Shown: piece after piece, positions 7,166 to 35,094 of the stretch
How the letters are laid out: each line of letters starts with the position of its first letter
Position numbering within the stretch: position 1 is the first letter of the stretch
Source of the DNA: a virus
Length of the DNA: 35,094 nt
Virus record (IMG/VR): IMGVR_UViG_3300044799_000394
Location: 1 to 35,094 of that record
Direction: 5' to 3' (one strand)
Notes under the pieces: model-generated
The model's database searches: none
Seen by the model: the letters and a program-made list of their open reading frames with translations, nothing else
Told to the model about the DNA's origin: nothing
Translations under genes and position numbers: made by a program

Positions 7166-7168
7166 CCC

Positions 7169-7663
7169 ATGCCCACCGCAAGGCGCAAATATGTCTATCG
7201 AGGGTCAAGGGATTCATCGGACGCCCGGCGCCGTGAGCTGGCCGCCATCCACATCGCCCTGGTCGAGATGAAGCGAGAGGGCAAGATCACCGAGGACCTC
7301 TACCGCGACCTGCTAAGGGGCCGCTTCAAGGTGGACTCCTCGGCCGCCCTCAACCGCCCCGGCCGCCTGGCCCTCTTGGCCGACCTCCGCGCGCTTCGCG
7401 GGCAGAAGGCGAGGCCGCAGAGCCTCTACCAGCAGCGCCGGGGTCACTGGCAGGCCCAGGGCCTGCGCGCCGGCATGGCCACGGCCGAGCAGCTCGCCCG
7501 CATCGAGGAGCTGTCCGAGCGGGCCTTCACGGCGGCCGACAAGGGCCACGCCCTGCGCAAGTTCATCTTCCGCATGGCGGGCGTCTCTGACCTCCGCTGG
7601 CTCCCCTACGACAAGGCCAGCAAGGTGATCGAGGCCCTGAAGCGCATGGCGGCGAGGAGATAA
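7169..7663 (+). CDS. gemA: GemA/gp16-like regulatory protein (DUF1018 type)
   Basis: 164 aa. The Mu gp16/GemA family signature is clear: an N-terminal helix with AIHIALVEMKREGKITEDLYRDLL, a central basic loop with SS/SAALNRPG, then MATAEQLARIEEL, HALRKFIFRMAGVSDLRWLPYDKA and a last helix KVIEALKRM. In Mu, GemA is reported to affect host gene expression and DNA supercoiling; its biochemical action is poorly known. The gene closes the set of Mu-type early genes and its stop overlaps the next ATG by one base. Confidence 0.88.
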   Translation: MPTARRKYVYRGSRDSSDARRRELAAIHIALVEMKREGKITEDLYRDLLRGRFKVDSSAALNRPGRLALLADLRALRGQKARPQSLYQQRRGHWQAQGLRAGMATAEQLARIEELSERAFTAADKGHALRKFIFRMAGVSDLRWLPYDKASKVIEALKRMAARR

Positions 7664-8088
7664 TGGCCAAGGGTGGCGGCAAGCCGGCGGCCTTCCTGGA
7701 GGACTTCGAGGCGGCCTGGAAGCTCTACCCGCGCCACTACGCCCGGCTGGAGGCCCTGGAGAAGTACGGGTCGCGCCGGCGCGAGGGCGTCCCGGCCGAG
7801 GAGCTGCTGCGGGCCGTCGTGAACTACGCCGACCACGTGCGCCGCAATGGCATCGTCCAGGCCTTCGTCATGCACGGAGGCACCTTCTTCGGCAAGAAGC
7901 GGCGCTGGGAGGACTACCTCAACCCGGCGCCCATCGAAGAGCCGCCCGATCAGGCCAAGGCGAAGCGGTGCCACTTCAAGCTCGGCGGCTGCCGCGAGAC
8001 CTGGGCCGCGCTCAAGCACGACCCGACCTGCAGATGGTGCTACCGGTACCTGAAGAAGCTGGTGCCGCCGGAGGAAAAGGCGGTCTAG
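7663..8088 (+). CDS. Replication-protein-like domain with C-terminal zinc-finger-like tail
   Basis: 141 aa. Residues about 11-90 match a domain common at the C-terminus of phage and plasmid replication proteins, with the hallmark 'F-x3-W-x-x-YP' (FEAAWKLYPRHYARLEALEKY), a helix around AVVNYADHVR and an end motif GGTFFGKKRRWEDYLN. It is unusual in following with a four-Cys segment (RCHF...GGCRE ... TCRWCYRY) and a basic tail. A role in DNA transactions is inferred; no initiator or helicase domain is present. Confidence 0.6.
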   Translation: MAKGGGKPAAFLEDFEAAWKLYPRHYARLEALEKYGSRRREGVPAEELLRAVVNYADHVRRNGIVQAFVMHGGTFFGKKRRWEDYLNPAPIEEPPDQAKAKRCHFKLGGCRETWAALKHDPTCRWCYRYLKKLVPPEEKAV

Positions 8089-8115
8089 TGGGGACAAGGG
8101 AGGGGGACATCGGCA

Positions 8116-8313
8116 TTGAAGCCAGGCAACCCGGCCATTTTTCAGTCATGGCCCATTCCACTCAGATGCGTGGAGTGCGGAAAGCATTTTATCGATATTG
8201 ACGGGACCGACGGGTCAAACGGACACTACAGCAAGCGCTGCCCGCGGTGCAAAAAGATGAACAAATGCGATGTTAAAGTTCTTGACTCCCATATAGAGCT
8301 TCGCTACAGGTAG
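8116..8313 (+). CDS. com: Com-like zinc-ribbon translational regulator
   Basis: 65 aa from TTG 8116 behind a GGGAGGGGG stretch (about 8099-8107). The core LRCVECGKHF ... KRCPRCKKMNK matches the Mu Com family, where two Cys pairs bind zinc and Com binds mom mRNA to activate its translation. Base composition is distinctly more AT-rich than in neighbours (for example aaagcattttatcgatattg), suggesting separate acquisition. No mom-like gene lies next to it in this window, so either the target is outside the window or the protein has another RNA target. The Com assignment rests on the CxxC/CPRC pattern and small size. Confidence 0.65.
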   Translation: MKPGNPAIFQSWPIPLRCVECGKHFIDIDGTDGSNGHYSKRCPRCKKMNKCDVKVLDSHIELRYR

Positions 8314-8357
8314 AGACGTCAGCGCACCTTTGCGTGCCCTGCCGCAGCGCCCCTAAG

Positions 8358-8397
8358 CGGGCCAGACGGTTTATCCGTTTGGCCCGTTTTCTTTTTT
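8358..8397 (+). terminator. Strong intrinsic terminator ending the early array
   Basis: A 12-bp stem (8358-8369 with 8375-8386; one G-U pair, otherwise perfect), a 5-nt loop TTTAT, and a tract TTTTCTTTTTT (8387-8397). It lies 45 bp after the Com-like stop and before the lysis region, so it should separate early transcription from the downstream operon. Confidence 0.92.
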
Positions 8398-8427
8398 GGA
8401 GCCCCAGCCGGTGCTACCCCGCCGGCC

Positions 8428-8466
8428 GCGAGGGCGGGAACCCCTGGCCGAGTATCCCGCCCTCGC
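8428..8466. promoter_or_regulatory. Perfect 12-bp inverted repeat upstream of the lysis/late operon
   Basis: 8428-8439 (gcgagggcggga) is the exact reverse complement of 8455-8466, separated by 15 nt. There is no T-tract, so it is not an ordinary terminator. It ends about 21 nt before ATG 8488. It may be an operator for a middle/late activator (the Mor/C role in Mu) or a 5' UTR hairpin. I cannot identify -10/-35 boxes with confidence. Confidence 0.55.
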
Positions 8467-8487
8467 CCCACCCCTCAGGAGGAGTGG

Positions 8488-8670
8488 ATGAGCGAACGCA
8501 GAGCCAAGGCCCTCAGGCGAGCGATCTACGGCGATGCCGTGCGCCTGCCGCGCACCTACGGCGGGGAGTTGCACCGGGTCCCGGCCGGCGCCGAGAACGT
8601 CGTCAACCGCCTCACGCTCCACTGCACGGGGCCTCGGGCCGACTACCAGCGGGCCAAGAAGGCATTTTGA
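8488..8670 (+). CDS. Small basic phage protein, 60 aa
   Basis: ATG 8488 has a strong AGGAGGAG site (8478-8485). The protein begins SERRAKALRRAIYGD and ends ADYQRAKKAF, with a short middle containing RTYG. The RxLRRxIYGD opening and the YxxAK ending look like those of small uncharacterised phage proteins, but no function is known to me. It is the first gene after the terminator and inverted repeat, so it marks the start of the next transcription unit. Confidence 0.65.
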   Translation: MSERRAKALRRAIYGDAVRLPRTYGGELHRVPAGAENVVNRLTLHCTGPRADYQRAKKAF

Positions 8671-11531: not shown

Positions 11532-13079
11532 GTGGCAGGCATAAACCTCCAGAAAAAGCTCGGCAGCAAGGAGTTCCAGCGCAAGGCTGACGAGATACTG
11601 AACGCCCTGCGGACCGAGGTGCGCCCGTTCGAGGACGCCTCGGAGACCGCCCGCAAGGCCCGCGTCGAGCGCTCCCTGGCCGACAAGTTCTACTTCTTCA
11701 ACACGTACCTGCCGCACTATTTCTCGCTTCCCGAGGCCAAGTTCCACCACGAGCTGATCGAGGAGCTGGACGTCCGCAACCTGGACGACGACGCGTCCCT
11801 GGTGCCCTTCGCCTGCGCCGCTCCCCGAGGCTTTGCCAAGTCGACGGTCACCAGCTTCGGCTACGTCATCCACCAGCTCTGCCACGGCCGGCGGCATTTC
11901 ATCATCATCGGCTCCGACACGGAAGACCTGGCCTCGGATATCACCTGTTACATCTACCTCGAGCTGCTCTTCAACGAGCGCATCCGGGCCGACTTCGGAG
12001 AGCAGGTGCTGCCCGGCTGGGCCGTCAACGACTTCGTGACCTTGAAGGACGTGCGCCTCCTCGCCCGTGGCCGGGGCCAACGCATGCGCGGTTTGAAACA
12101 CAAGCAATGGAGGCCCGATCTCGTCATTCTCGACGACATGGAGAACGACGAAAATGTCAAGAATCCCAAGCAGGTCAAGAAGTTGCTCTCCTGGATCAAG
12201 GCCGCTGTCTACTCGGCCATCCAGCCTACCGGCAACCTGTTTCTGATTGGCACCCTCCTCGCCCCTAAGAGCGCCTTGGCGATCATCGTCCACCAGAAGG
12301 AGGAGCCCTTCGACCACTGGCGGGTCAAGCGCTACCAGGGCCTGCAGGCCGACGGCACCAGCCTCTGGCCGTCCAGCTGGCCGGTGGCCCGCCTCCTCAA
12401 GCACAAGGAGATGATCGGGGCCAAGGCCTTCGCGCAGGAAATCCAGAACGCGCCCTTCGACGACGAGGGCATGTTCCAGGAGGCGTGGGTCCGCTACGTC
12501 GAGAACGAGGACGAGCTCAAGGGCAACGCGCTGCGAGTCCTGACCGGGGCCGACCCCTCGGCCACCAGCGGAGCCTCGTCCGACTACAAGGCCGTCATCA
12601 CCGGCGGTTACGACGTCGAGACGGGCACGCTTTATTGCCTCTCAGCCTACATCCGGCACGAGTCGCCGAAGGAATTTGTCTCGCGCATCTACGACGTCCA
12701 CAAGGCCCACCATCCGCTCCTCATCGGCGTCGAAGAGAACATGCTCAAAGAGTGGCTGTGGGAGCCCGTGGCCCTCGAGGCCAAAAAAAGAGGTTACTGG
12801 CCGCCGTTCAAGGCCGTCCACCACCTGCAGAACAAGGAAGGCCGGCTGATGAAGGTCTCGGCCATGATGGAGCACGGCAAGATCGTCTTCATCCGCAACC
12901 AGACCGACCAGGGCACGCTCGTCGAGCAGCTGCTTGCCTTCCCCAACGGCACCGTCAACGACGACGGCCCGGACGCCCTGGAGATCGTCGTCAGCCTCAT
13001 CGAGCAGGTCGCCGGCGCCGCGCCCGAGTACCGCACCGTCGAAAAGCGCCGCTTCGCCGGCCAAGTGGGGGCCTACTGA
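11532..13079 (+). CDS. gp28-like large terminase (packaging ATPase/nuclease)
   Basis: 515 aa from GTG 11532. The ATPase domain has a Walker A-type APRGFAKST (residues 97-105), a FIIIGSDTEDLA segment, and Walker B DLVILDD (D201/D202) followed by ME. The nuclease domain begins after about residue 330 with LTGADPSA (D341), then GVEEN, and near the C-terminus DDGPDALE, giving the acidic metal-binding set of an RNase H-like nuclease. It cuts host-flanked phage DNA and pumps it into the prohead. The portal ATG overlaps its stop (TGATG). Confidence 0.93.
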   Translation: MAGINLQKKLGSKEFQRKADEILNALRTEVRPFEDASETARKARVERSLADKFYFFNTYLPHYFSLPEAKFHHELIEELDVRNLDDDASLVPFACAAPRGFAKSTVTSFGYVIHQLCHGRRHFIIIGSDTEDLASDITCYIYLELLFNERIRADFGEQVLPGWAVNDFVTLKDVRLLARGRGQRMRGLKHKQWRPDLVILDDMENDENVKNPKQVKKLLSWIKAAVYSAIQPTGNLFLIGTLLAPKSALAIIVHQKEEPFDHWRVKRYQGLQADGTSLWPSSWPVARLLKHKEMIGAKAFAQEIQNAPFDDEGMFQEAWVRYVENEDELKGNALRVLTGADPSATSGASSDYKAVITGGYDVETGTLYCLSAYIRHESPKEFVSRIYDVHKAHHPLLIGVEENMLKEWLWEPVALEAKKRGYWPPFKAVHHLQNKEGRLMKVSAMMEHGKIVFIRNQTDQGTLVEQLLAFPNGTVNDDGPDALEIVVSLIEQVAGAAPEYRTVEKRRFAGQVGAY

Positions 13080-15499
13080 TGGGCATGATCCGCGATATTT
13101 TCCGCCGCCTGCGGCCCCAGCCCGCGGCCTCCGACCTCAAGGGCCAGGTCGCCCAGCATACCCGCCAGGACCGCTACGCGCAGTATCCGAGCAACGGCCT
13201 CACGCCCGAGGGCCTGGCCCGTCTTCTGCGGGGCGCCGACCTTGGCTACACGCTCGCCCAGTACGAGCTTTTCGAGGAGATGGAAGAGAAGGACGCCCTC
13301 CTCGCCAGCCTCCTGCAGACGCGCAAACAGGCCGTCCTGGCCCTCGACTACGAGGTGGTGCCCTACGACCCGAAGCGCCTCCGCGACCGCAAAGTGGCCC
13401 AGTTCTGCGCCGACGTGATCTATGGCATCGAGAACTTCGAGGACGCCCTCCTGGACCTGCTCGACGCCGTGGGGAAGGGCATCTCCCTGGCCGAGCTCAT
13501 CTGGGAGATCACGCCGACCGAGGGCCGCGTAACCAGTATCGAGTGGGTCCACCCCAAGAAGCTCACCTTCGCCGACGCCGAGATACCGCGCCTGCTGACC
13601 GAGGAGAGCCCGGTCACCGGCATCGAGCTGCCTCCCTGGAAGTTCCTTTTCCACCGCTACAAGGCGAGGAGCGGCTTCGACACGAGGGCCGGCCTGCTGC
13701 GCACCTGCGCCTGGTGGTGGTTATTCAAAAACCTCTCGGTGAAGGACTGGCTCATCTTTCAGGAGCGCTTCGGCATGCCGCTGCGCCTGGGCACCTACGA
13801 GGCAGGGGCCAGCCCGAAGGATATCGATGCCCTGCTGGCGGCCGTCCAGGCCCTGGGCGCCGACGGGGCGGGCGTCAAATCCAAGAACACCGAGATCGAA
13901 ATCAAGGAGGCCGCGGGCAAGACCGGCTCCGTGGCCGTTTACAGCGGCATGGTCGGCCTGTGCGACAAATACCTCACTCTGACCGTCCTGGGGCAGGAGC
14001 TGACCAGCTCGGCGGGCTCCGGGGGCTCGGGCTCTTATGCCCTTGGCAAGGTCCACGACAACGTCCGCCAGGACCTCAAGCGCTCCGACTGCGAGGCCCT
14101 CTCGCGCACGCTGCGGGCCGGGCTCCTGGAGGCCCTGGTCCGCTATAATTTCGGTCCGGACACGCCTGTCCCCTGGTTCAAATTTCATTATGAGCCCGAG
14201 GAGGACAAGCAGGCCAAGGCCACGTATTTCAAGACGGTCATCTGCGACATCGGCCTGTCGGTCTCCCAGGACCACCTCTACGAAGAGCTCGGCATCCCCA
14301 AGCCCGAGGGCGGTCAGGCCATCGTGGCGCCACCCACGGCCGGGGCCGCCCCGGTGGGCCTGCGCCTCTCCCAGGCCGACGCCCAGCAGCAGGCCCAGCT
14401 CGACCGCGAGGACCAGTCCCTCGACGGCCTGGTGCGCGCCTGCCTGGACGACGCCCAGAGCATGGTCGAGCGCCTGGGCAATCAGCTCGACCGCCAGCTC
14501 CAAGGCCGCTCGAGCAGCGAGCTCGCCGACGCCATCCTCTCGGTCGTCCCGGCCCTGCCCGGCACCGATCTGGAAGACCTGCTCGCCCGCGCCTGGTTCG
14601 GCGGCAACCTCTTCGGCCGGGCCTCGGTCATGGACGAGGCGTTGGAGACCGAGGCTGTATCGAGACAGCTTGGTGCGCTGAAGCTTTCCGAGCAGTGGGA
14701 ACGGATGGGAATCAAAGGGCGCCCGGCGTGGAAACGAGTGGCGGGGATGCGGCCAGCCACACTGGCCCTCTCCGGAATTTCCCTTGAGCCGCTGCCCTTC
14801 GACGAGGCCATCGACTGGTTCGCCGACAAGGTCGTGCTCTCGGCCGACCAGTACGCCAGGCTGACCGAGCAGGCCCGCGCCTGGGCCTTCAGCGTCTCCG
14901 GCCTCACCCGCATCGACCTCGTGGCCGACGTCTACAACTCGCTCCAGGACGCCCTCCAGCAGGGCACCGACATGGGCGAGTGGCGGCGCGACATCACCTC
15001 CCGCCTCCAGGAGCGCGGATGGGCGGGCCCCAACCCGTGGCGGCTGGAGACCATCTTCCTCAACAACGTCCTGGAGAGCTACAACGCCGGCCGCTGGGCG
15101 CAGCAGAACGACCCCTACGTCCTCGAGCGGCGCCCCTTGCTCGTTTACAAGACCAAGGACGACGGCCGGGTCCGCCCCGAGCACCACCTCTGGCACAACA
15201 CCGTCCTGCCGACCGGCCACCCGTGGTGGAACACGCACTACCCGCCGAACGGTCATCGGTGCAGGTGCAAGGCGCTTTCCGTGTCTCCGGGCGAGATCAA
15301 GGAGTTCGGCCTCACCCTGGCCACCGAGCCGCCAATCGGCGAGCCCGATCCGGGCTGGGCCTTCAACCCCGGCAAGGAGGCAGGCCGCCCGCAGGCCTTC
15401 ATCTCCCGCGTCAGGCAGGCGAAGCAGAACTACCCGCCCCAGCTCCAGCGCCAGCTCGACCTGCTGGCCAAGGGCCCCGGGGCGAAGGGAGGCAAGTAG
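13079..15499 (+). CDS. Portal protein fused to MuF head-morphogenesis domain (gp29-F fusion)
   Basis: 806 aa from ATG 13079. In Mu the portal (gp29, 512 aa) and F (gp30, 427 aa) are separate; here one ORF holds both. Residues about 1-520 match the DUF935 portal family (EEKDALLASLLQTRKQAV, VGKGISLAELIWEI, WVHPKKLTF, KDWLIFQERFGMPLRLGTY). Residues about 575-760 match the MuF domain (ADQYARLTEQARAWAFSVSG, RLETIFLNNVLESYNAGRW, WHNTVLPTGHPWWNTHYPPN, then GHRCRCKA). The portal is the DNA entry dodecamer; MuF proteins are minor head proteins. No stop or internal start breaks the join. Confidence 0.92.
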   Translation: MGMIRDIFRRLRPQPAASDLKGQVAQHTRQDRYAQYPSNGLTPEGLARLLRGADLGYTLAQYELFEEMEEKDALLASLLQTRKQAVLALDYEVVPYDPKRLRDRKVAQFCADVIYGIENFEDALLDLLDAVGKGISLAELIWEITPTEGRVTSIEWVHPKKLTFADAEIPRLLTEESPVTGIELPPWKFLFHRYKARSGFDTRAGLLRTCAWWWLFKNLSVKDWLIFQERFGMPLRLGTYEAGASPKDIDALLAAVQALGADGAGVKSKNTEIEIKEAAGKTGSVAVYSGMVGLCDKYLTLTVLGQELTSSAGSGGSGSYALGKVHDNVRQDLKRSDCEALSRTLRAGLLEALVRYNFGPDTPVPWFKFHYEPEEDKQAKATYFKTVICDIGLSVSQDHLYEELGIPKPEGGQAIVAPPTAGAAPVGLRLSQADAQQQAQLDREDQSLDGLVRACLDDAQSMVERLGNQLDRQLQGRSSSELADAILSVVPALPGTDLEDLLARAWFGGNLFGRASVMDEALETEAVSRQLGALKLSEQWERMGIKGRPAWKRVAGMRPATLALSGISLEPLPFDEAIDWFADKVVLSADQYARLTEQARAWAFSVSGLTRIDLVADVYNSLQDALQQGTDMGEWRRDITSRLQERGWAGPNPWRLETIFLNNVLESYNAGRWAQQNDPYVLERRPLLVYKTKDDGRVRPEHHLWHNTVLPTGHPWWNTHYPPNGHRCRCKALSVSPGEIKEFGLTLATEPPIGEPDPGWAFNPGKEAGRPQAFISRVRQAKQNYPPQLQRQLDLLAKGPGAKGGK

Positions 15500-22946: not shown

Positions 22947-25637
22947 GTGGCCGCAAGCGGACAGAGCATCATCGAGCTGATCATCCGCCTCAAAGATGAG
23001 GCCAGCCAGGGCGTCGCCGGCCTGCGCGGGCAGCTCGACTCCTGGCACAACACGCTCACCCACGGCCAGGGCATCCTCTCCAGCTACACCGGCCAACTGG
23101 CGGCCATGTTCGGCGTCTACCTGGGCGCCCAGGGGCTCGCCGGCCTCGCCCGTGGCTTCACCGACACCGCCTCCTCGATGGAGTCCTACGGGGTCCGCCT
23201 GCGGGTGCTGATGGGCTCGCAGGAGCAGGCCAACGCCGCGCTGCAGCTCATGCAGGACATCGCCGCGAAGTCCCCGGCCACCATCGGGCAGGTCGTCGAG
23301 TCGGGCACCACCCTCCAGGCGATGGGGGCGAGCCTCTACACCTGGCTGCCTGTCCTGAACGACCTCTCGGCCGTGATGGGCATGACCATGCCCGAGGCGG
23401 CCAGCGCCCTGGGCCGGGCCTACGCCGGCGGCATCGGGGCGGCCGACATCTTCCGCGAGCGCGGCATCAACGCCCTCATCGGCTCCTTCGCCAAGATGAA
23501 GTATGGCATCGACGACCTCACTAAGGTCTCGCTGCCGGAGTTCCGGCGCATCATGCTCGAGGCGATGTCGGCCGCGGGCGGCGGCATTGCCGGGGCCGGC
23601 GAGGAGATGGCGAAGACCGGGTCGGGCCTGTGGTCGATGCTCTCCGACGCCTACGAGCGCTGGAAGCTCAAGATCGCCGACACCGGGGCCTACGACAACC
23701 TCAAGGGCAAACTCGACGCCCTCCTCAAGCAGATCGACAAGTGGGCGGAAAACGGCAAGCTCGACGAGTGGGCGCAGACGGCCGGGGAGTGGATCGAGTA
23801 CCTGGCGGGCTGGGTCGAGAGGCTTTCCACCTTCCTCTACAACCACTCAGACTCCATCGAGCGCGTTGTTCTCGGCTACGTCGGCCTGACCCGCGTCCTG
23901 CCGGCGCTGATCGGCCTCGTCTCCAGCCTGGCGGCGGCCCAGGAGCGGCTCAACGTCGCCCAGGCCGAGGGCGCGACGACCGGGGCGGTGGGCGCGAAGA
24001 CGACGGGCAAGATGGCCCTGGCCGGCAAGAGCCTCCTCGCCGGCTACATCGGCTACGAGGCGGGCGGCGTGGCGGGCGACCTCACCTACGGCGCTGGCCC
24101 TGGAGCGACCTGGGGGCAGAGGCTCGGCGGCCTGGCCGGTTTCGGGATCGGCGCCTACTTCGGCGGGCCCTGGGGAGCCTTGGCGGGCTCGGCCGCGGGC
24201 AGCTACATCGGCGGCGGGATCGGCTCGCTGAGTGACCGCGTCGCCACGCCCTCCGAGGCAATGCCCAAGGCCGACAACTCGGCCGCCCTGGCCGCCGCGC
24301 AGGCCGCGGATGCCCAGAAGACCTTCGACGAGGAGCGGAAGGCCCTCCACCAGCAGCTCGAGGCGGCGCTGACCAAGATCACGGTGACCGAGGTCCAACG
24401 GCGGATCGACGCCGAGATCGAGAAGCTCGTCGAGATCAAGAAGAAGTACGGCGAAAAGTCCGAGGAGTACAAGCTCCAGGAGCAGGTCCTCACCGCCACC
24501 CTGCAGCAGGAGCTCGACAAGCGCGGAAAGGCCGAGATCGAGGCCATGCAGAAGGTCCTCAAGGCCCGGATGGACTACGAGGAGAAGAAGCAGAAGGCCG
24601 TCGCCGAGGTGGCCGGCGTGACGGGCAACTCCGAGGCCGGCGCCGAGGCCAAGCTCCAGGCCCTCAAGGACAAGGCCCGCGAGCGGCTCCAGGCCGGCGT
24701 GCCCGTCGCCGACGTGACCAAGGCCCTCGCCTCCGAGCTGGAGGCCTACTACAAGGACCTCACCGACCAGCAGCAGAAGGCCATCGACAAGACGAAGGAC
24801 CTGGTCCAGGCGCAGCAGGACGCCCGCTCGAAGATCTCCGACATGGGCGACCAGTTCGCCGACCTGAACACGCAGAGGGACGCCCTCATCGCCCAGGAGC
24901 ACCACGAGGGCGGCTACATCAACGACCAGGGGCAGGGCTTCGACTACAACGCCTACTACAAGAAGCTCGACGAGATCGACCGGAAGCGGGCCAAGCTCGA
25001 CGCCGACATGCAGGCGCAGCAGGAAAACCTCGACAAGTTGGAGCGCGAGGCGACGACCACCCCGGCCGAGATAGAGACCAAGTACCAGCAGGCCCTCGCA
25101 TCGGTGACCGGCTACCTGGCCCAGGTGAAGCAGGACCTCGCCACCGGCAACCTGGAGGTCGTGGGGCAGATGCTCACCGACTGGGGCGGCGCCTACGGCC
25201 AGATACTCTCCGACCTGAATGGCCTCGGCCTGATGGAGGCAAGGCCCAGGGCGACGCTGCTCGACCAGGCCACCCAGCCCGTTGCCGACCTCATCTCAAA
25301 GCTCCAGGGGCTGGTCAGCCGCGACTGGGTCGTGCGCGTCAGGGCAGCCGTCGAGGCCCCGCTCTCCGAATATCAGTTCAGCCTGGAGACACACCACACG
25401 GGCACGCTCTACAGCTCGGGCGGCCTCAAGGTCCTGGAGCCCGGCGAGGTCGTCATCCCCAGCCGGGGCGGCCTGGCCGGCGACTTCCGGGCGGCCGTCG
25501 ACGCCCTGGGCAGCGCCGTCAGCAGTCGCGCCGGCGGCGGCGGCCCCGTCAACATCATCATCAACCAGAAGATCGACCGCGCCTTCATCCGCAACGTCCT
25601 CGTACCCGAATTGAATCGCGCCCTGGAAAGGGCTTAG
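22947..25637 (+). CDS. Tail tape measure protein
   Basis: 896 aa from GTG 22947 with AGAGG upstream. The N-terminal 300 residues show the tape measure signature (IIRLKDEASQGVAGLRGQ, GLARGFTDTASSMESYGVRL, ATIGQVVESGTTLQAMG, GMTMPEAASALGRAYAGG). Hydrophobic Gly-rich segments at about 360-430 could cross a membrane during DNA entry. A long coiled-coil rich in Glu, Lys and Gln follows (about 440-710), then a C-terminal domain ending in GGLKVLEPGEVVIPSRGG. Its length sets tail length. Confidence 0.92.
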   Translation: MAASGQSIIELIIRLKDEASQGVAGLRGQLDSWHNTLTHGQGILSSYTGQLAAMFGVYLGAQGLAGLARGFTDTASSMESYGVRLRVLMGSQEQANAALQLMQDIAAKSPATIGQVVESGTTLQAMGASLYTWLPVLNDLSAVMGMTMPEAASALGRAYAGGIGAADIFRERGINALIGSFAKMKYGIDDLTKVSLPEFRRIMLEAMSAAGGGIAGAGEEMAKTGSGLWSMLSDAYERWKLKIADTGAYDNLKGKLDALLKQIDKWAENGKLDEWAQTAGEWIEYLAGWVERLSTFLYNHSDSIERVVLGYVGLTRVLPALIGLVSSLAAAQERLNVAQAEGATTGAVGAKTTGKMALAGKSLLAGYIGYEAGGVAGDLTYGAGPGATWGQRLGGLAGFGIGAYFGGPWGALAGSAAGSYIGGGIGSLSDRVATPSEAMPKADNSAALAAAQAADAQKTFDEERKALHQQLEAALTKITVTEVQRRIDAEIEKLVEIKKKYGEKSEEYKLQEQVLTATLQQELDKRGKAEIEAMQKVLKARMDYEEKKQKAVAEVAGVTGNSEAGAEAKLQALKDKARERLQAGVPVADVTKALASELEAYYKDLTDQQQKAIDKTKDLVQAQQDARSKISDMGDQFADLNTQRDALIAQEHHEGGYINDQGQGFDYNAYYKKLDEIDRKRAKLDADMQAQQENLDKLEREATTTPAEIETKYQQALASVTGYLAQVKQDLATGNLEVVGQMLTDWGGAYGQILSDLNGLGLMEARPRATLLDQATQPVADLISKLQGLVSRDWVVRVRAAVEAPLSEYQFSLETHHTGTLYSSGGLKVLEPGEVVIPSRGGLAGDFRAAVDALGSAVSSRAGGGGPVNIIINQKIDRAFIRNVLVPELNRALERA

Positions 25638-25649
25638 GAGGAGAGCAGC

Positions 25650-26081
25650 ATGGCAGACGTCATCTATAACCGCGCGGCGAGGGAAATCGCCAAGAACACC
25701 ATCGACCTGGACGCGGCGAGCGCCTTTAAGGTGGCCCTCATCACGAGCGGCTACACCCCGGACAAGGATCACAACAGCTTCGCCACGCACATCCAGCCCC
25801 AGGAGGCATCGGGCTCTGGCTACACCGCCGGTGGGGCCACCCTCGCCAACACCGTGGTCACCGAGGACGACACCAACGACTTCGCCTACTGGGACGGTGA
25901 CGACGTCGTCTGGCCCGCCAGTACCATCACGGCCCGCTACGCGGTCGTTTACCACGCATCGAGCGGCGTGCCCGTGGTGTGCAAGGACTTCGGGGCCAAC
26001 AAGAGCAGCTCGGGCGATAACTTCACCGTTCAGTGGGCCACCCCGGCCAACGGCGCCATCCTGAAGCTCAGCCAGCCGTAA
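25650..26081 (+). CDS. Small tail structural protein
   Basis: 143 aa from ATG 25650, with AGGAGGAGAG upstream. The pattern ADVIYNRAAREIAKNTIDLD ... FKVALITSGYTPDKDHNSF ... SGSGYTAGGATLANTVVTEDDTND ... ARYAVVYH is shared by small virion proteins I associate with many phages of high-GC bacteria, located just after the tape measure. It appears all-beta in its latter part. Role in the tail tip is likely but its exact place is unknown. Confidence 0.7.
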   Translation: MADVIYNRAAREIAKNTIDLDAASAFKVALITSGYTPDKDHNSFATHIQPQEASGSGYTAGGATLANTVVTEDDTNDFAYWDGDDVVWPASTITARYAVVYHASSGVPVVCKDFGANKSSSGDNFTVQWATPANGAILKLSQP

Positions 26082-26091
26082 GAGGTCGGGC

Positions 26092-28611
26092 ATGCCAGGC
26101 CATTACGGAGAGGGGACCTGCAGCGCCCCGCGCTGGAGCGATACCCAGCAGGCGGTGGACTACGTCACGGCCGGCCAGGTGCTGGCGAGCTCGCATTGCC
26201 TGGAGTGGGTCTTCACCGTGGGCGCCAATGGCATCGCAGGCGACCACACCAGCGGTGGCGGTAACTCCACGGCGGGGCAGGTGCGCCTCGGGTTGCATGC
26301 CGGCACGGACGTCACCACCATCGGCGACTGCTTCGGCCCCTGGGACGCCAACCATTACACCGTCGTCGTGAAGCATTGGAACGGCTCCTCCTGGGACACC
26401 TGGACCGAGAATACCCAGTACCGCGTCGACCAGGCTGACAACGCCGCCTGCCTGAAGGTCTCGCCCAAGTATGGCTATGGCCTCCTCGCCGGCGACACCA
26501 TCACCGTGCGTTTCTGGGGCAAGATCACCAAGGTCGCCACCAAGCGCAAGGTCTACCACAAGCCGGGGCAAATCTGCCTCCTCGTCGAGTCCCGCGAGAC
26601 CGCCACCGTTGACGGCACCGCTACCGGGGCGCCGCTCAACGCCTGCACCGACGGCGGCCACAACGACTACGAGTTCCTCAACGCTTACATCGCCGACCGG
26701 CCGGGGCTCACCGTCAAGAACCAGGCGAACGTGGCGGCGTTTTTGGTGGTCCCCCCACTGGTGGTCGCCTGGGAGAGCACGCAGAGCGAGGCGGTCGAGG
26801 TCGAAATCTCGGCCCTCGATCTCATGGGAAACGGGATGGCCGACCCGCCCTACACGGGCACCATCACCCTGGCCTCCGCCGTGAACTGGATATGGGACGG
26901 CGACCAGACGCCGGCCACCAGCCATCAGGTGACCTTCGCCAGCGGCGACGAGGGCAAGATCACCCTCACCGGCGTGCGCTTCCTGGCCCGTCCCGCCGGC
27001 CACTATGTCTGGCTGGATGTGACTTCTCCGAGCGCGTGGAGCATTTCGAGCGCCGTCTCGCTCGATGACTCGCCTCCCTACTGCATCCTGGTCGGCGACC
27101 CGCACGCCCACACCAACGTCGACCACCGGGGCAACTTCATCGACCCCGAGGCCGTCTACTGCTATGGCCTCTTCACCGCCTGCCTCGACTGGATGGTGGG
27201 AGTAGACCACGGCTGGTGCTGGTACAACGACTGCCGCTGGACCGCGCGCGAGCTGTACCAGCGGCAGGTGGTCCGAGCGCTCAAGTACACGACCAGCAAA
27301 AAGACCGCTCTCCGGGGAGGGGAGTGGACGCGCGGCCAGGCCAGTTCGGGCTGCGACGTGCCCGCCACCGAAGGCCAGAGCCATCACAACTTCTTCGACC
27401 GGCCGCCGCAGGTGGGGCTTTTTCACAGCGGCTTCTCCTGCCGGGCCCTGCGGACCGAAGATGCCCTGGTGGCCAAGCTGGATGCCTCCGGCCTGGACTA
27501 CGTTCTCTATCCCCACCCGATGCACGGGAAGAAGAATTGGGCCGCCGAAGACCCGCCGCACCCCAACGAGCCCGTCGCCGAGATAATTTCGTACAAGGCT
27601 GCGATGCAGCACGACATGGACGACAAGACGCAGGGCGAATTTCTGCCCTATCCCTGGCCGCGCTGCTTCGAGCTGCCCGGCAAGAACCTGGCCGGCGTCA
27701 CCTACTCCACCACTCAGGCATATGGGTTTGCCTTTTCCTTCCGCTACCTCTGGGGCTTCCAGGACGCGATGAAGCGCCTGTTCGGGGTCTACGGGGGCAC
27801 CGACAGCCATATCGAGCGATCAGGCTGCCCGAACTGGGAGGGGACGGGAATCTACTTCGGCACCTCCGCCTTCTATCAGCGCGGTGGGCTGACGCACGTC
27901 CTGACGGACGGCCAAGGTGGCGGTCCTATTTTCGACGGCTTCAAGGCCAAGCGGACCTACGCCTCGTCGGGCGTGAGGTTCCATCTGGAGTTCTCGCTCA
28001 CCATCAACGGCCAGACGGTCCCGATGGGGCAGGCGGTCTCGCTCGCGGCCGGGACCTATCCCTACACGGTCAACGTCCGCCTGGGCGCCTGCACCAACCT
28101 GCGGAAGGTCGACGTCTACCGCTCCGACCCCACCCAATATGCCGGCGAGATGGGCGACGGCTGGGTGCTGGTGAAGCGTTGGAGCAAGCGCGTCGTGGGC
28201 GACCCGCTCTACGGCGGGGCAAGAAGCCTGGAGGCCCCGGCCACGGGCAGCATCACCCTCAACGCGACCGACAACCACTTCTCCCTCTATCTCTTCGGGC
28301 AGCAGGACGAGGGCACCGACACGGACCTGGGAACCTCCCCGTATTCCTGGTCGTACACCGCGCCTTACTACAAGGTCTCCCCCAGCGTGGCGCGGCCCTT
28401 GGGCGGCCTGGAGCTGGACGAGGTCCCCCTGCCGGAAGCGGGCCAGCTCAGCGACCTGCATTCGGACGCCAAGGCGTTTTTCCACGACGGCACCGACCTC
28501 TACGTGGCCGGATTCAACCCCACCACGCTCGGGGCCGGGCACCTCTTCCGCCTGAGCTACGGCGGGAATGGCGTCTGGGCGAGCCCGATCACCGTGCAGC
28601 TGGCGGCCTAG
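26092..28611 (+). CDS. Tail protein with PHP/DUF3604-type metallohydrolase domain
   Basis: 839 aa. Residues about 1-330 are beta-rich and resemble virion appendage domains. At about 333-650 lies a PHP-like core: GDPHAHT (H338, H340), then LDWMVGVDHG (D372, H373), SHHNFF (H431, H432), LYPHP (H475) and GGTDSH (D571, H573). The RTYASSGVRFHLEF segment followed by MGQAVSL matches the 'ATtG.R' strand that follows the DUF3604 catalytic core. This residue set would bind two or three metals for phosphoester or similar hydrolysis. The C-terminal 180 residues are beta-type. Encoded between the tape measure and distal tail genes, it is probably a virion enzyme; the substrate is unknown. Confidence 0.75.
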   Translation: MPGHYGEGTCSAPRWSDTQQAVDYVTAGQVLASSHCLEWVFTVGANGIAGDHTSGGGNSTAGQVRLGLHAGTDVTTIGDCFGPWDANHYTVVVKHWNGSSWDTWTENTQYRVDQADNAACLKVSPKYGYGLLAGDTITVRFWGKITKVATKRKVYHKPGQICLLVESRETATVDGTATGAPLNACTDGGHNDYEFLNAYIADRPGLTVKNQANVAAFLVVPPLVVAWESTQSEAVEVEISALDLMGNGMADPPYTGTITLASAVNWIWDGDQTPATSHQVTFASGDEGKITLTGVRFLARPAGHYVWLDVTSPSAWSISSAVSLDDSPPYCILVGDPHAHTNVDHRGNFIDPEAVYCYGLFTACLDWMVGVDHGWCWYNDCRWTARELYQRQVVRALKYTTSKKTALRGGEWTRGQASSGCDVPATEGQSHHNFFDRPPQVGLFHSGFSCRALRTEDALVAKLDASGLDYVLYPHPMHGKKNWAAEDPPHPNEPVAEIISYKAAMQHDMDDKTQGEFLPYPWPRCFELPGKNLAGVTYSTTQAYGFAFSFRYLWGFQDAMKRLFGVYGGTDSHIERSGCPNWEGTGIYFGTSAFYQRGGLTHVLTDGQGGGPIFDGFKAKRTYASSGVRFHLEFSLTINGQTVPMGQAVSLAAGTYPYTVNVRLGACTNLRKVDVYRSDPTQYAGEMGDGWVLVKRWSKRVVGDPLYGGARSLEAPATGSITLNATDNHFSLYLFGQQDEGTDTDLGTSPYSWSYTAPYYKVSPSVARPLGGLELDEVPLPEAGQLSDLHSDAKAFFHDGTDLYVAGFNPTTLGAGHLFRLSYGGNGVWASPITVQLAA

Positions 28612-31053
28612 GTGATCACCCATTTCATAGAGAACAACCTGCCCGACCGGCTCTGGTCTGACGACCTGACCGACCTGGCCGCCTACAAGTGGGTCCGGCA
28701 CGGCTCCACAAACGAGTACTACTGCCTCACCCTGGCCAACGCGCAGCCCATCCCGGCCGCCCCGTCCTTCATCAAGCTCGACAGCCTCTATGCCACCCAG
28801 GGCACGCCCGGCAGCCTCGCCGCGGGCCAGTGGGGCTGGGGCAACGTCGATAGCCTTGGCTTCAACACGCTCTACGCCCGCCTGGCCGATGACGCCAGCC
28901 CTCAGACCAAGGCCCTGGGATATGTGCTCGACAGCGGCCACCGGGTGCCGTCGACGGCCTACACCAACATCACCCTCCAGCCGCTCTATTACGATCTGCT
29001 CAGCGCGGCCTATAAGTGGACGCAGTCGACAGCTAACCCGAACGAGTACTTCTGTGAGGCGGCGGCGGGCGGCACTCCCCGGCTGAGGCGGCCGACCCTG
29101 GTCGAGACCGGCCGCGACACGACGGTCCTCATTCGGGGCACGGCGGGCAGCCTCCTCGAGGGCGAGTGGGGCTATGGCCGCACCGACGGCCAGACTTACG
29201 ACACCATTTATGCGCGCATCACCGGCAACGCAAGCCCGGCCGGGCTGTCCTACCTCGTCGGCAAGGACCCGGACTATTTTCCGACCACGGCCCAGTCTCT
29301 TTCGCTGCGGCTCATCAACGAGAACACGGTCTATGCCACTTATGCGGTCACCGCCTCTGGGGCCACCGGGGACACCTCCGACCGGCGCATCGGGGCCGGC
29401 GCGCAGCAGGGCTGGTGGGTCAACGTCAACAACTCGACCCGCCAGGTCTGCGTCTACTGCGACTCGCCCGCCACCTGCCGGCTCATCGTCGTGGGCTGGG
29501 GCGAGAAGGGCGGCTTCGTCGACGCCCCGACCAACTACTCGGTCGCTAACAACGCTGGGTGGGTGGAGCACACCGCCAGTTACCCGACGGTGCCCTCGGG
29601 CATTACTCCGTCCGGCTCTATCCACCGGATGCGGACCAAGAACTCGGGCGGCGGCGCGCGCGGCCCCAGCTCCAACTTCGCGCCCTTCTACGGCCCCGCC
29701 AATAGCTGGGTGGGTGCCCCCAGCCGCATCAACAGCGCCTACAACCCGCCGCGCTCGACGGTCTACGGCGGGTCAACGGGCTGGATTTACGCGCACTACG
29801 GCTATTTTGATGCGTCAGAGTGGGTTTTCGACGATGCGGCCGACCTAACCGAGCTGGCGGTCGACACCTCTGATCTGGGCAACTGGTACGGCGCCGATAC
29901 CGGGAAGGTCGGCTCCGCCACAGCCCTCATCTTCATTCAGAACACCGCGCTCAGCTGCACCAAGCTCGGCGCGGTGCGCTCGGCTGCCGCCAATGACAAC
30001 TTCAACACCTTCGCCGGCATCCTCTCCGGGACGAACTACGGCGGCGGCTACTACTCTGAGGTGGCCCTCGACGAACTAGGCCGCTTCCAGTACTACCGCG
30101 AGACCGCCGACATCAAGTTCTACCTCGTGGCCTGGACGCCGGCGACCGTCCAGGTGGGTACCACCACCCTGGCCCTGGAGTCTCCCGCCGTGACGGCCAC
30201 CGGGGCCGCTCTGGCCCAGCCGGGGACGGCCACGCTGGCCCTGGAGTCTCCAGCCGCAAGCTTCTCGGGCGCCGCGGTGGTCGTGGTCGGCACGACCGAC
30301 CTCAGCCTCATCTCGCCGGCGGTCACGGCCCTCGGCGCGGCCCTGGTCATGGTCGGCACGACCGGCCTCAACCTCGCCTCTCCGGCGGTCACGGCCCGCG
30401 GCGCGGCCAGGGCTTCGGTGGCCACGACCGAGGTCCAGCTCGTCTCGCCCGCCGTGACAGTTATTTCAACCCACGGGACCATCGTAGAGGTGCTCGCCGA
30501 TACTCTGGCCCTGGAGTCTCCAGCCGTGACGGCCACCGGGGCCGCTCTGGCGCAGCCCGTGACGGCCACTCTGACGCTCCTTTCGCCCTCCGTCGTCATC
30601 GGCGCCGGGCAGCAGATCCTCGTCCCGGTGGGGCCGTCGGTGTTGCAACTCGTCTCGCCCGCCGTCACCGTCCTGGCTGGGCAGCAAGCCGGCCGCCTCG
30701 TTTTCCAGCTCGGGACGCAGAGCATCCTAATCAGTTGTGGCCGCGTCTACCCCGTCAAGGAGCCCAAGGAGAGGTTGCAGGTCGTCTCGCGGACAGCGGG
30801 CGGGACCATCCGCGTCGTCGACAAGGGCGTCAAGGTGCGGACCATCGTCCTGACCTTCAAGGACCTGCGGGGCGGCGACTACGCGGCCCTCGACGACTGG
30901 TACGACAACGTCGCCGTCGGGGCCATGAACGTCTTCACCCTCATCACCGAGAACGGCGCCAGCCAATCGGTGCGCTGGACGGGCACTTTCGACCTGCCGA
31001 TGAGCGCCTACGACCGCTACGAAGGCGACATCACTCTGGAGCGGGTGGACTGA
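28612..31053 (+). CDS. Repeat-rich distal tail protein
   Basis: 813 aa from GTG 28612, which directly follows the upstream stop. The first part (residues about 20-225) contains two related ~100-aa units (KWVRHGSTNEYYC ... GTPGSLAAGQWGWGN and KWTQSTANPNEYFC ... GTAGSLLEGEWGYG). Residues about 515-695 hold eight ~20-aa repeats of the type 'tLaLeSPAVTatGAAl'. The last 110 residues (LGTQSILISCGRVYPVKE ... YDNVAVGAMNVFTLITENG) look like a distal tail beta domain. No catalytic site is seen. It may link the tube to the tip or act in receptor contact. Confidence 0.68.
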   Translation: MITHFIENNLPDRLWSDDLTDLAAYKWVRHGSTNEYYCLTLANAQPIPAAPSFIKLDSLYATQGTPGSLAAGQWGWGNVDSLGFNTLYARLADDASPQTKALGYVLDSGHRVPSTAYTNITLQPLYYDLLSAAYKWTQSTANPNEYFCEAAAGGTPRLRRPTLVETGRDTTVLIRGTAGSLLEGEWGYGRTDGQTYDTIYARITGNASPAGLSYLVGKDPDYFPTTAQSLSLRLINENTVYATYAVTASGATGDTSDRRIGAGAQQGWWVNVNNSTRQVCVYCDSPATCRLIVVGWGEKGGFVDAPTNYSVANNAGWVEHTASYPTVPSGITPSGSIHRMRTKNSGGGARGPSSNFAPFYGPANSWVGAPSRINSAYNPPRSTVYGGSTGWIYAHYGYFDASEWVFDDAADLTELAVDTSDLGNWYGADTGKVGSATALIFIQNTALSCTKLGAVRSAAANDNFNTFAGILSGTNYGGGYYSEVALDELGRFQYYRETADIKFYLVAWTPATVQVGTTTLALESPAVTATGAALAQPGTATLALESPAASFSGAAVVVVGTTDLSLISPAVTALGAALVMVGTTGLNLASPAVTARGAARASVATTEVQLVSPAVTVISTHGTIVEVLADTLALESPAVTATGAALAQPVTATLTLLSPSVVIGAGQQILVPVGPSVLQLVSPAVTVLAGQQAGRLVFQLGTQSILISCGRVYPVKEPKERLQVVSRTAGGTIRVVDKGVKVRTIVLTFKDLRGGDYAALDDWYDNVAVGAMNVFTLITENGASQSVRWTGTFDLPMSAYDRYEGDITLERVD

Positions 31054-31655
31054 TGGAGCGGCTCATTCTCTGCGATGTGAACGAGGCATTGTGCAAATGC
31101 TGGAGCGAGTTATTCAGTCGCGGGTTTAAGGGTCATGTCCACATAGTAAATTCCGGCTTCGAGCAGGTCCTTCCCCTGGGATCGATCGATTGCATCGTCA
31201 GCCCTGGCAATTCATTCGGCTTGATGGACGGGGGCATCGACCAAAAAATAATCGAGTTCTTCGGCCCTGAGCTGCAAGCAAAGGTGCAGCGCGCCATTTT
31301 AGGGGACTATTTCGGACAGCAGCCTGTCGGTACTTCCCTTGTTGTCGAAACAGGCCATTCGCTCTGTCCTTATCTTGCCCACACTCCCACGATGCGCGTC
31401 CCGGCATCGATAGTGGGGACGGACAACATCTATAACGCCATGCGGGCCATGCTGATCGCCGTGTCCAGGGTGGCAGCCGTCAAGACCGTGCTCTGCCCCG
31501 GCCTCGGCACGCTGACGGGGAAGGTCTCTCCCGAGGAAGCGGCACGGCAGATGTACGTGGCCTACTGCAACACGAGTGCGGTCCCGTCGGCCTTGACCTG
31601 GGAATACGCGCTCTGCATCGCTCGCCCGCTCGAGAAGGAGCACCAATGCGCGTAG
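31053..31655 (+). CDS. Macro-domain protein (ADP-ribose binding, Poa1-like)
   Basis: 200 aa from ATG 31053 (TGATG overlap). The macro fold signature is clear: IDCIVSPGNSFGLMDGGID (residues 45-63; N53 and the DGG loop bind ADP-ribose in the family), then QPVGTSLVVETG, APTMRVP-type segment (HTPTMRVPASI), NIYNAMRAMLIAV, and CPGLGTLTGKVSPEEAARQM. Family members bind or hydrolyse ADP-ribose derivatives. Base composition is more AT-rich than in neighbours (cgaccaaaaaataatcgag), suggesting a later acquisition. It sits between tail genes, where a structural role is unlikely; counter-defence or NAD metabolism are possibilities. Confidence 0.85.
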   Translation: MERLILCDVNEALCKCWSELFSRGFKGHVHIVNSGFEQVLPLGSIDCIVSPGNSFGLMDGGIDQKIIEFFGPELQAKVQRAILGDYFGQQPVGTSLVVETGHSLCPYLAHTPTMRVPASIVGTDNIYNAMRAMLIAVSRVAAVKTVLCPGLGTLTGKVSPEEAARQMYVAYCNTSAVPSALTWEYALCIARPLEKEHQCA

Positions 31656-34600
31656 GGCTGCCCACCGATTTCCTCGCCCAATCGGGTGCCGTCGCCAACC
31701 GGCCGGTCAACCTGCTGGTGCTGAAGTTCGCCGGCTCCTCGGGCTGGGCCTATCTGTCTGACCGCGATTTGGGCACCGAGTACGGCCTGAGCCATGAGTA
31801 TGTCGGCCTGGTGCGCGACTGGGGCCAGCTCTCCGACCTGCCCGTGAACGTCTTGGACGCCGCGGGCGCGTCCGAGACCCGCGACATGACGATCGAGCTC
31901 TGGAACGGCGGCGCGGAGCCCTTCTCCGACCGCTTCCTCGAGCAGAACCCCGAGAACGTCGAGGCCGAGCTGTGGCAGTGGTTCGAGGGCACGCCGGAGA
32001 CCTCGGCCGTCCTCATCGACCGCTTCACCGTGGCCGACCGGATCGCCTACGATGAGGCCAACCGGAAGCTGGAGTTCGACCTGGTCAGCATCTCCGTCAC
32101 GGTCGATTGCCAGGTGGGCCAGGTCATCGAGGCCGAGGACTTCCCGGACGCGCCCGCCGCCTCCATCGGCCAGGCCATCCCGGTCGTCTTCGGCTTGGTG
32201 CCCGGCGTGCCCTGCCCCTGCATCGAGGCCCCGGCTGAGTGCAAGCTGGCCGCCTCCATCCTGAGCACCGAGCTGGTCGTGGCAGTCGACGACGCCTCGA
32301 AGTTCCCGGACTCGGGCGTCATCCAGATCGACGACGAGCGCATGCTCTACCGCTCCCGCACCGCCACGGCCTTCAACATCGCCGCCCGGGGCCACCAGGG
32401 CACGGTGAAGGCCGATCACCTGACCGGGCGCACCGTGGCCGAGGTGAGGAGCTACGTCTTCGCCGCCTCCAAGGGCCCGGTGCAGAAGATCGACGTCGCC
32501 AATGTCCGCGTCGATGGCCTCAAGCCGGACAACCCGCCCACCGTCTCTCTCGGCACGGACCCGGCCACGATCACCTTCGATGGGCCGCCCAAGGCGACCG
32601 CGCTCGCCGAGGGAACGTCGTGGGTCGAGCTGCAGATGGACGCCGTGGTGGATGGCGGCTCTGCCGTCAACCCGGAGCTGGCCTTCGACGACGAGAACGC
32701 CAACACGGCGGCCGAGCTGAGCCGCGACCATCCCCTCCTGTGTCTCAAGCAGACGACGGCCAACGCCGACCGGGGCGCCATCCGCAAGGCGGTGGTGATG
32801 GCCGAGCACTACGAGGACGGCCAGTTCTTCCAAGACCACGTGGCGGTGGAGGTCTCGGACGGCCTGGGGGGCTGGACGCCGCTCGGGCGGCTATCGAGGC
32901 CGCACCTGGAAGACCAGACGACGGTGACGGCCGAGGTGGACATCGACCACGCCCACTCCGACAACCTCCAGGCGGAGCATACCCACGCCCTGACGCCGCC
33001 CGAGAGCAGCCTGAACGACCCGGGGCATATCCACAACCTGTTGACGAGCGACGTGGAGTACTCCGCAACCGTCGACACCAACCAGCCCGTGGCCTTCAAG
33101 GAGTGCTACGCGGATAGGAACGGCACCCCGGTTTGGTCGAAGCCGGTTGCTAGCAGCTACGCCACTTGCACCTTCACCCTGCCTCCGAGCCCGCCCGCAG
33201 GCACTTGGCGCCTACAGGTCAAATATCAGAGCGCCTCCTTCTACGTCGGGTGGCCTGGCAAGACGGACCCTTGGGCCGTGTATAGTGTACCCACCCGGCC
33301 GCATCTCTCGAGCGGTTATTACGAGGACGCAGTCTCCGGCGCTGCCGACCGCCTGCCGGTCCTGCCCACCTGCGCTTCGATCCAGGCCGCCCTGACCGCC
33401 TCGATGGCGCTGCCCGGCCCCAAGTCAACGATCTACCTTTCCTGTGCGGAGACAGTTTGCATCGCGGGGGCCTGGGAGAACCACTATGGGGGCGTAATCC
33501 TTGAGGTGAAGCAGATATTTACTCCAGCCTCGGGCGGCGTCGAGGTGGCCACCACGCAGATCATCCTCCTGCCGAAGAGCGCCGGCAAGAACGCGACGGT
33601 CCAGCCACTCACCGGCCAGGTCGACCCGCTGGCCACCGACAACGTGCCCCTCCAGAACGTCCAGATCAGCGCCCCCACCAGGACGACCGTCGACGCCTTC
33701 GACCTTACCGCCCTGGTCGCCGGCGACTGGGGCTGGTTCACCGGCAGGGAGGTGCGCCTCAGCTACCTGGGCCCGCTCGACGGCCTGACCTGCTACGTCC
33801 GCCACGTCTGGGTTGAGGCGGAGTACGCGCCCCGGGAGGTCAAGCTGGCCTCGGTCGTCACGGCCGACGTCGAGGGCATCATCGACGACGCGGCGGGCAG
33901 CATCACCGGGACGCCCAGGCGCCTCATCACGCGCCCCGACGACGTGCGCCGGTGGCTGCTGGTGAGGCAGGCCGGCCTCGACGCCTCGCGGTGTGACTTC
34001 GGCCGCGCGGGCACCCGCTACAACGTTCGCCCGGCTGGTTTGGGCTACCACTTCGACTTTGCCCTGACCGAGCAGATCAGCCTCAAGGACCTGGAGCGCA
34101 AGCTCGCCCGCCAGTGCCGCTCGCGCTTCTACTGGGACGCCGGGGTGGCCAAGATCGCCGTCCGCGAGCGCGACAGCGAGGTGCGCCCGGCCAAGGCCAT
34201 CACCGCCGACATGATCCTGCTCGACTCCATGCGCGCCGAGCGCGGGCGCGTGGCCAACCTGGCCAACAAGATCAGCCTCTTCTACCGCAAGGACCTCGGC
34301 TCATCGGCGGCCGGGGCCAAGGCCTACCTGGCCTCGGTGCGGGGCCGGAACGGCGCCTCGATGGCCGCCCACGGGACCAAGGAGCGCCCGGACGACTTCC
34401 TCTTCGACGCCGTGCGCGACCGGGCGATGGCCGAGGACCTGCTCGATTTCTACCTGGAGCACGAGGGCCGGATTTCGACCTTCTACACCTTTGACTGCTT
34501 CCTGGACGCCTTCGACCTGGAGAAGGAGGACGGCGTTCGCATCACCCACCCGTTCGACACGCTGGCGGGCAATATCGCCGTCGTCTGGGCGGCGGGGCGC

Positions 34601-35094
34601 ATCCTGGGCTCGGGCGAGGGCAGGCAGGCCGACCTGGTGCGCGTCCAGGCCGAGCTGCTCCCCAGGAAGCGGCTGAGGCTCAACCTCTCCGACGAGACGC
34701 GGGCCAGAGACGCCCTCAGCCGACACTTTCTCCTCACGCCCCACCTGGCCGATCTCGCCCACACCCGGGACGCCCTGCGCTTCGACCTGGCGCTCTCGAA
34801 GGCCGAGGGCGTGGCGGCTCTTGACGACCTGACGCGCCTGGGTGATCGCTTCCGGCTTCATTCCGAGGCGATGGCGGCGGACGATGCGCTGCGGGCCGAC
34901 CTCTCTCTCGGCAAGGGCGAGGTTATCAGCGTCGAGGACGTCTGCGTGGCCTCGGTGGGCGACCAGGACCGGGCGGCCCTTACCGACGAGGCCGGCCCCT
35001 CCGACCACCTCACCGTCCTCTTGCAGTATGGGCGCACGCTCCAGGAGGCCGCCCACGCCACCGACTCACTCACCATTCAGATTCTCAGCGGCTA
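31646..35094 (+). CDS. Tail tip / central hub protein, cut by the window edge
   Basis: At least 1149 residues from ATG 31646 (behind GAAGGAG), open to the last base with no stop. The N-terminal 160 residues resemble tail hub proteins of siphovirus-like Mu phages (DMTIELWNGGAEPFSD, LIDRFTVADRIAYDEANRKLEFDL). A region ending near residue 270 has SGVIQIDDERMLYRSR and AARGHQGTVKADH, typical of phage hub proteins. Three HxH motifs lie at 435-437, 445-447 and 461-463. A long C-terminal part (LNLSDETRARDALSRH ...) is helical and repetitive. It probably forms the trimeric tail tip that contacts the host. Confidence 0.78.
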   Translation, partial: MRVGLPTDFLAQSGAVANRPVNLLVLKFAGSSGWAYLSDRDLGTEYGLSHEYVGLVRDWGQLSDLPVNVLDAAGASETRDMTIELWNGGAEPFSDRFLEQNPENVEAELWQWFEGTPETSAVLIDRFTVADRIAYDEANRKLEFDLVSISVTVDCQVGQVIEAEDFPDAPAASIGQAIPVVFGLVPGVPCPCIEAPAECKLAASILSTELVVAVDDASKFPDSGVIQIDDERMLYRSRTATAFNIAARGHQGTVKADHLTGRTVAEVRSYVFAASKGPVQKIDVANVRVDGLKPDNPPTVSLGTDPATITFDGPPKATALAEGTSWVELQMDAVVDGGSAVNPELAFDDENANTAAELSRDHPLLCLKQTTANADRGAIRKAVVMAEHYEDGQFFQDHVAVEVSDGLGGWTPLGRLSRPHLEDQTTVTAEVDIDHAHSDNLQAEHTHALTPPESSLNDPGHIHNLLTSDVEYSATVDTNQPVAFKECYADRNGTPVWSKPVASSYATCTFTLPPSPPAGTWRLQVKYQSASFYVGWPGKTDPWAVYSVPTRPHLSSGYYEDAVSGAADRLPVLPTCASIQAALTASMALPGPKSTIYLSCAETVCIAGAWENHYGGVILEVKQIFTPASGGVEVATTQIILLPKSAGKNATVQPLTGQVDPLATDNVPLQNVQISAPTRTTVDAFDLTALVAGDWGWFTGREVRLSYLGPLDGLTCYVRHVWVEAEYAPREVKLASVVTADVEGIIDDAAGSITGTPRRLITRPDDVRRWLLVRQAGLDASRCDFGRAGTRYNVRPAGLGYHFDFALTEQISLKDLERKLARQCRSRFYWDAGVAKIAVRERDSEVRPAKAITADMILLDSMRAERGRVANLANKISLFYRKDLGSSAAGAKAYLASVRGRNGASMAAHGTKERPDDFLFDAVRDRAMAEDLLDFYLEHEGRISTFYTFDCFLDAFDLEKEDGVRITHPFDTLAGNIAVVWAAGRILGSGEGRQADLVRVQAELLPRKRLRLNLSDETRARDALSRHFLLTPHLADLAHTRDALRFDLALSKAEGVAALDDLTRLGDRFRLHSEAMAADDALRADLSLGKGEVISVEDVCVASVGDQDRAALTDEAGPSDHLTVLLQYGRTLQEAAHATDSLTIQILSG

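Follow-up and report, generated by a model that had tools for sequence, protein, structure and literature searches.

Genomic context of P0001

The analysed window was the whole of a 35,094-base virus contig from an uncultured Mu-like phage. It encoded a Mu-type transposase, a terminase, a portal/MuF fusion and a head protease, together with a scaffold-like protein (weak match), a major head protein, Mu gp36 and tail_S family proteins. One open frame at 12485–15499 (+) covered both the portal and the MuF-like head morphogenesis matches; its true start is probably near 13067, because the annotated start overlaps the terminase ORF. The gene under study, P0001, and its neighbours were arranged as follows:

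22947–25637 (+), tape measure protein (PHROG E 3.1e-18; Pfam TMP_3 below cut-off)
25650–26081 (+), phrog_644 protein of 143 aa, the upstream neighbour of P0001 (PHROG E 4.7e-26)
26092–28611 (+), P0001, divergent PHP/CehA/DUF3604-type metallohydrolase gene, 839 aa
28612–31053 (+), P0002, probable tail protein rich in repeats, with its start immediately behind the P0001 stop (no family match)
31050–31655 (+), macro-domain protein, phrog_2613 (Pfam Macro E 8.3e-13; PHROG E 1.9e-53)
31646–35092 (+), tail-tip-like protein cut by the contig end (weak tail fiber/baseplate PHROG matches)

P0001 was a single intact ORF that started with ATG and was immediately preceded by an AGAGG-like ribosome-binding site. 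It was packed tightly in a same-strand operon, with a 10-bp gap upstream and a TAG stop that abutted the GTG start of the next gene. The GC content at the third codon position was 0.889, which was comparable to that of the adjacent genes. A signal-peptide-like N-terminus was absent. With the tape measure and phrog_644 genes on the 5′ side and the P0002, macro-domain and tail-tip-like genes on the 3′ side, P0001 was encoded within the tail morphogenesis operon, between the tape measure and tail-tip genes, where the initial annotation had placed it. In phages such as S-LBS1 and Guey18, relatives of the phrog_644 protein sit within tail gene modules or beside them.

The P0002 product contained repeated TTTLALESPAVTATGAA-like segments. 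The macro-domain gene was of the ADP-ribose-binding type, and its phrog_2613 relatives are annotated in Gifsy-1 and, in the Salmonella phages SEN4 and SEN5, in tail-fibre regions.

Domain layout and metal site

The initial annotation had read a PHP/DUF3604-type metallohydrolase domain from the ordered motifs of P0001. The observation was real: the positions given for H338, H340, D372, H373, H475, D571 and H573 were exact in the P0001 sequence, and the HH pair (431–432) and RTYASSGVR (621–629) lay where they had been described. The domain itself was borne out at residues ~328–681 by profile-profile matches and conserved metal-site residues. The features within the gene were:

26188–26862 (+), N-terminal region, residues 33–257, weakly like the cellular DUF3604 N-terminal region (hhalign)
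27073–28134 (+), PHP/CehA-like metallohydrolase domain, residues 328–681 (hhalign to the CehA/McbA profile)
27094–27114 (+), motif I, GDPHAHT, with D336, H338 and H340 (relatives aligned)
27205–27210 (+), motif II, DH, with D372 and H373 (relatives aligned)
27322–27324 (+), E411 in GGEWT, invariant metal-site Glu (38/38 relatives)
27382–27390 (+), HHN, with H431 in the ligand column (relatives aligned)
27514–27516 (+), H475 in YPHP (36/38 relatives)
27580–27582 (+), E497 in AEIIS, conserved Glu of the EI.S motif (36/37 relatives)
27598–27750 (+), insertion of ~50 aa, residues ~503–553, not in the relatives aligned
27802–27810 (+), DxH motif with D571 and H573 (36/38 relatives each)
27952–27978 (+), RTYASSGVR signature 3′ of the core, aligning with RRTYATTGxR of DUF3604/CehA
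28159–28608 (+), C-terminal ~150 aa without detectable homologue

Conservation was counted across 38 aligned relatives, with gaps excluded. D336 and H338 were each the same in 33 of 37 relatives and H340 in 28 of 37, with Q in the H340 column of the other nine (9/37). H373 was shared by 24 of 38, and N occupied that position in 12 of 38. The ligand column of H431 held H in 22/38 relatives and D in 14/38. All of the conserved catalytic-site residues were kept in P0001 (H338, H340, D372-H373, E411, H431, H475, D571, and H573), and the PHP ligand set HxH, DH, E, H, H, DxH was found in order. The canonical HxH and DH were thus retained by P0001, while many cellular DUF3604 proteins carry Q and N. 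The metal site first proposed needed two amendments: the residues cited were conserved in the relatives, but the invariant E411 had been omitted; and the HH pair was present, but it is H431 and not H432 that falls in the ligand column.

The loose ordered motif HxH..DH..HH..H..DxH arose in 2.4% of composition shuffles, so the order alone is weak evidence. Neither the RTYASSG-type motif nor the correctly spaced motif with E411 turned up in 20,000 shuffles.

Homology to DUF3604, CehA/McbA and PHP proteins

Simple family searches stayed below their thresholds. Pfam DUF3604 (PF12228) scored 11.7 bits over the whole protein and 13.9 bits for the domain, missing the gathering cut-off of 20.4. The NCBIfam search gave no match, NF038032 (cut-off 80 bits) not being reached, and the PHROG search and the PF02811 profile search gave none either. 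A pairwise match to the DUF3604 protein P0005 of Azospirillum (L002) was found at E 5e-6, after which a DUF3604 family alignment of 11 proteins was built. P0001 matched this family in profile-profile comparison with prob 98.1 and E 1.4e-13 over 501 columns, collinearly along residues 33–681. The hmmsearch with the same alignment gave P0001 E 6.8e-16, while 200 shuffles reached E 0.69 at best. A CehA/McbA metallohydrolase profile, drawn mostly from planctomycete genomes, matched across the domain with all catalytic motifs (hhalign prob 97.7, E 1.6e-12). Shuffle controls for the family profile comparisons reached prob 0.7 to 0.8, and at most 0.7 against CehA/McbA. The two halves of the domain also matched separately (residues 325–560, prob 80, E 1.4e-5; residues 540–690, prob 96–98), with a best prob of at most 5.5 in their shuffle controls. 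By these profile comparisons, P0001 was shown to be a divergent relative of the bacterial PHP/CehA-McbA/DUF3604 metal-dependent hydrolases, homologous across the whole catalytic domain.

The CehA profile in turn matched canonical PHP proteins (prob 98.9, E 1.7e-17), while direct hhalign of P0001 to the canonical PHP set gave nothing (prob 0.6). The chain from P0001 through CehA/DUF3604 to PHP was shown by the P0001–CehA/DUF3604 and CehA–PHP profile matches; PHP membership of P0001 by a direct curated cut-off was not shown. Judged from the sequence comparisons, the affinity of P0001 to CehA/McbA-type enzymes is no weaker than its affinity to DUF3604 proper. In the tree it formed the longest branch, outside the DUF3604 clade and with an unsure placement, and the length of this branch may indicate a changed function.

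AlphaFold2 models had a pLDDT of 29.1 for the full protein and 32.8 for the PHP domain, too low for any reading of the fold or of the clustering of the metal site, probably because too few homologues were in the input. The DUF3604 protein of viral contig L015 (see below) was left out of the alignments for structure prediction because MAFFT misplaced its middle region. When P0001, P0005, the L015 protein and alignments A1 and A9 were used as queries against the sequences of solved structures, there were either no matches or chance-level ones only.

Flanking regions of the domain

The N-terminal flank had been taken for a phage appendage domain. It had no match among PHROG or Pfam families. Taken alone, residues 1–230 gave a weak hhalign alignment to the N-terminal region of DUF3604 proteins that kept the register (prob 18, E 1.3e-3, while 40 shuffles did not exceed prob 1.1). 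The weak DUF3604 resemblance and the lack of a phage family match speak against an appendage domain, though not conclusively. The CehA/McbA profile did not match the N-terminal region, and the C-terminal ~150 aa had no match in family searches. The N-terminus of P0001 also matched the tape measure protein by BLAST (E 0.001 within the window), which was put down to composition.

Distribution among viruses

No match to P0001 was found by tblastn at E <= 0.01 in 50,697 phage records. In the same records, the P0001 domain gave chance-level matches only and P0005 gave none. Patterns derived from P0001 recovered no relatives in viral contigs, and in genome contigs they recovered only ordinary P0005-like cellular DUF3604 genes. 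The PHP profile found nothing in 43 viral contigs with related portals, which is a weak result because this set held no positive control.

Two further viral contigs, L014 and L015, encoded DUF3604 proteins. In L014 (10.9 kb), the DUF3604 and TctC-like transporter genes at 4497–7732 were flanked by tail genes of the other orientation, and this pair is either cargo or an assembly artefact. In L015, a DUF3604 protein with a signal-peptide-like start was encoded at 6417–8513, near the end of a 149-kb contig, and its gene adjoined a ParB-like gene (judged by eye). Neither of these two homologues looks like a tail structural gene, so members of the family can also be carried as cargo.

Proposed function and alternatives

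The surface layers that a phage can cross are decided by its tail-borne enzymes; of the known types, most belong to the glycosidases, lyases, esterases, peptidases, and GDPD-type phosphodiesterases. Because P0001 is a relative of metal-dependent hydrolases and its metal-binding residues are intact, this phage may be equipped with an enzyme for the cleavage of ester bonds at the host surface. The most likely reading, which we favour with reasonable confidence, is that P0001 is a tail-associated metal-dependent ester/phosphoester hydrolase acting at the host surface; in this reading, metal binding, location in the virion, activity and substrate are all inferred. The protein would bind two or three divalent metals in the barrel pocket through H338, H340, H373, E411, H431, H475, D571, and H573, and a metal-activated water would attack an ester-type linkage, be it a phosphoester, carboxylester, or carbamate. 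Either integrated in the tail tip or borne on it, the protein would strip off or cut a group that is ester-linked to the host surface while the phage adsorbs, like other tail-associated hydrolases. The virion location and the phosphorylated or lipid glycan substrate suggested by the initial annotation are plausible. The full proposal, that the virion bears a tail-tip PHP/CehA-type metallohydrolase with which it cuts an ester-linked group of the host surface on adsorption, is put forward tentatively, at slightly under even chances.

Four His residues have been reported as important for the activity of CehA (PMC8292978, review), and a PHP-family phosphodiesterase carries ~2 Zn (PMC5460133). The principle of a hydrolase on the tail is already known, since phosphodiesterase (GDPD) domains have been documented in phage tail modules (PMC10194240). 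No tail-associated precedent for the PHP/CehA class was found in the searches made, and within those searches a PHP/CehA-type enzyme in a tail module appears to be new.

Three other explanations were considered. P0001 could be a passenger (moron) gene for a metabolic or accessory hydrolase of cellular type, acquired by the phage, expressed in the infected cell or lysogen and absent from the virion. The cargo-like appearance of the L014 and L015 homologues is in keeping with this, as is the presence of macro-domain genes in the tail regions of other phages. However, P0001 is on the same strand as its neighbours, tightly spaced and translationally abutting inside the tail operon, and it has neither a transporter partner nor a signal-peptide-like start; we regard a passenger as unlikely, with about one chance in four. 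A structural role in the tail, with a PHP-like barrel that has lost catalysis and acts as a scaffold or receptor-binding domain, would fit the long, divergent branch and the ~50-aa insertion in the catalytic half, but the metal-site residues are all kept, including the canonical H340 and H373 that are replaced in many cellular DUF3604 proteins, and this explanation is considerably less probable still. Chance resemblance of the motifs, with no PHP kinship, could appeal to the simple HMM searches below cut-offs and to the frequency of the loose motif in shuffles, but it is very improbable given the shuffle-controlled significance of the profile-profile matches and the separate support for both domain halves.

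Comparison with known systems

The DUF3604 proteins (PF12228; P0005 of Azospirillum) share with P0001 the order of N-terminal region (only weakly similar in P0001), Ig-like segment, and PHP core, as well as the GGLT, RTYATTGxR, and MG motifs. Identity is about 20–25%, and the P0001 score is below the Pfam cut-off. P0001 keeps H340 and DH where most of the aligned DUF3604 members have Q or ND, and unlike them it has the extra insertion of ~50 aa, an unmatched C-terminus, and a location in a phage tail operon. The CehA/McbA enzymes (NF038032) resemble P0001 in the full catalytic motif set and the domain-wide profile match; they differ in that NF038032 does not list P0001 and that the N-terminal region does not match. 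Known CehA enzymes break down carbamates (PMC8292978). The PHP phosphoesterases (PF02811; e.g., Sb-PDE, PMC5460133) arrange their ligands in the same way (HxH, DH, E, H, H, DxH), but the direct profile comparison was negative and the link runs only through CehA. The GDPD of enterococcal phages is, like P0001, a hydrolase encoded in a tail module; however, it belongs to another enzyme family, and its proposed substrate is teichoic acid (PMC10194240).

The name DUF3604 occurred in a single paper among 5.39 million searched. If the favoured reading of P0001 as a tail-associated hydrolase is true, it would give a testable handle on this family, and a metallohydrolase of the PHP/CehA type would extend the range of tail-borne enzyme classes.
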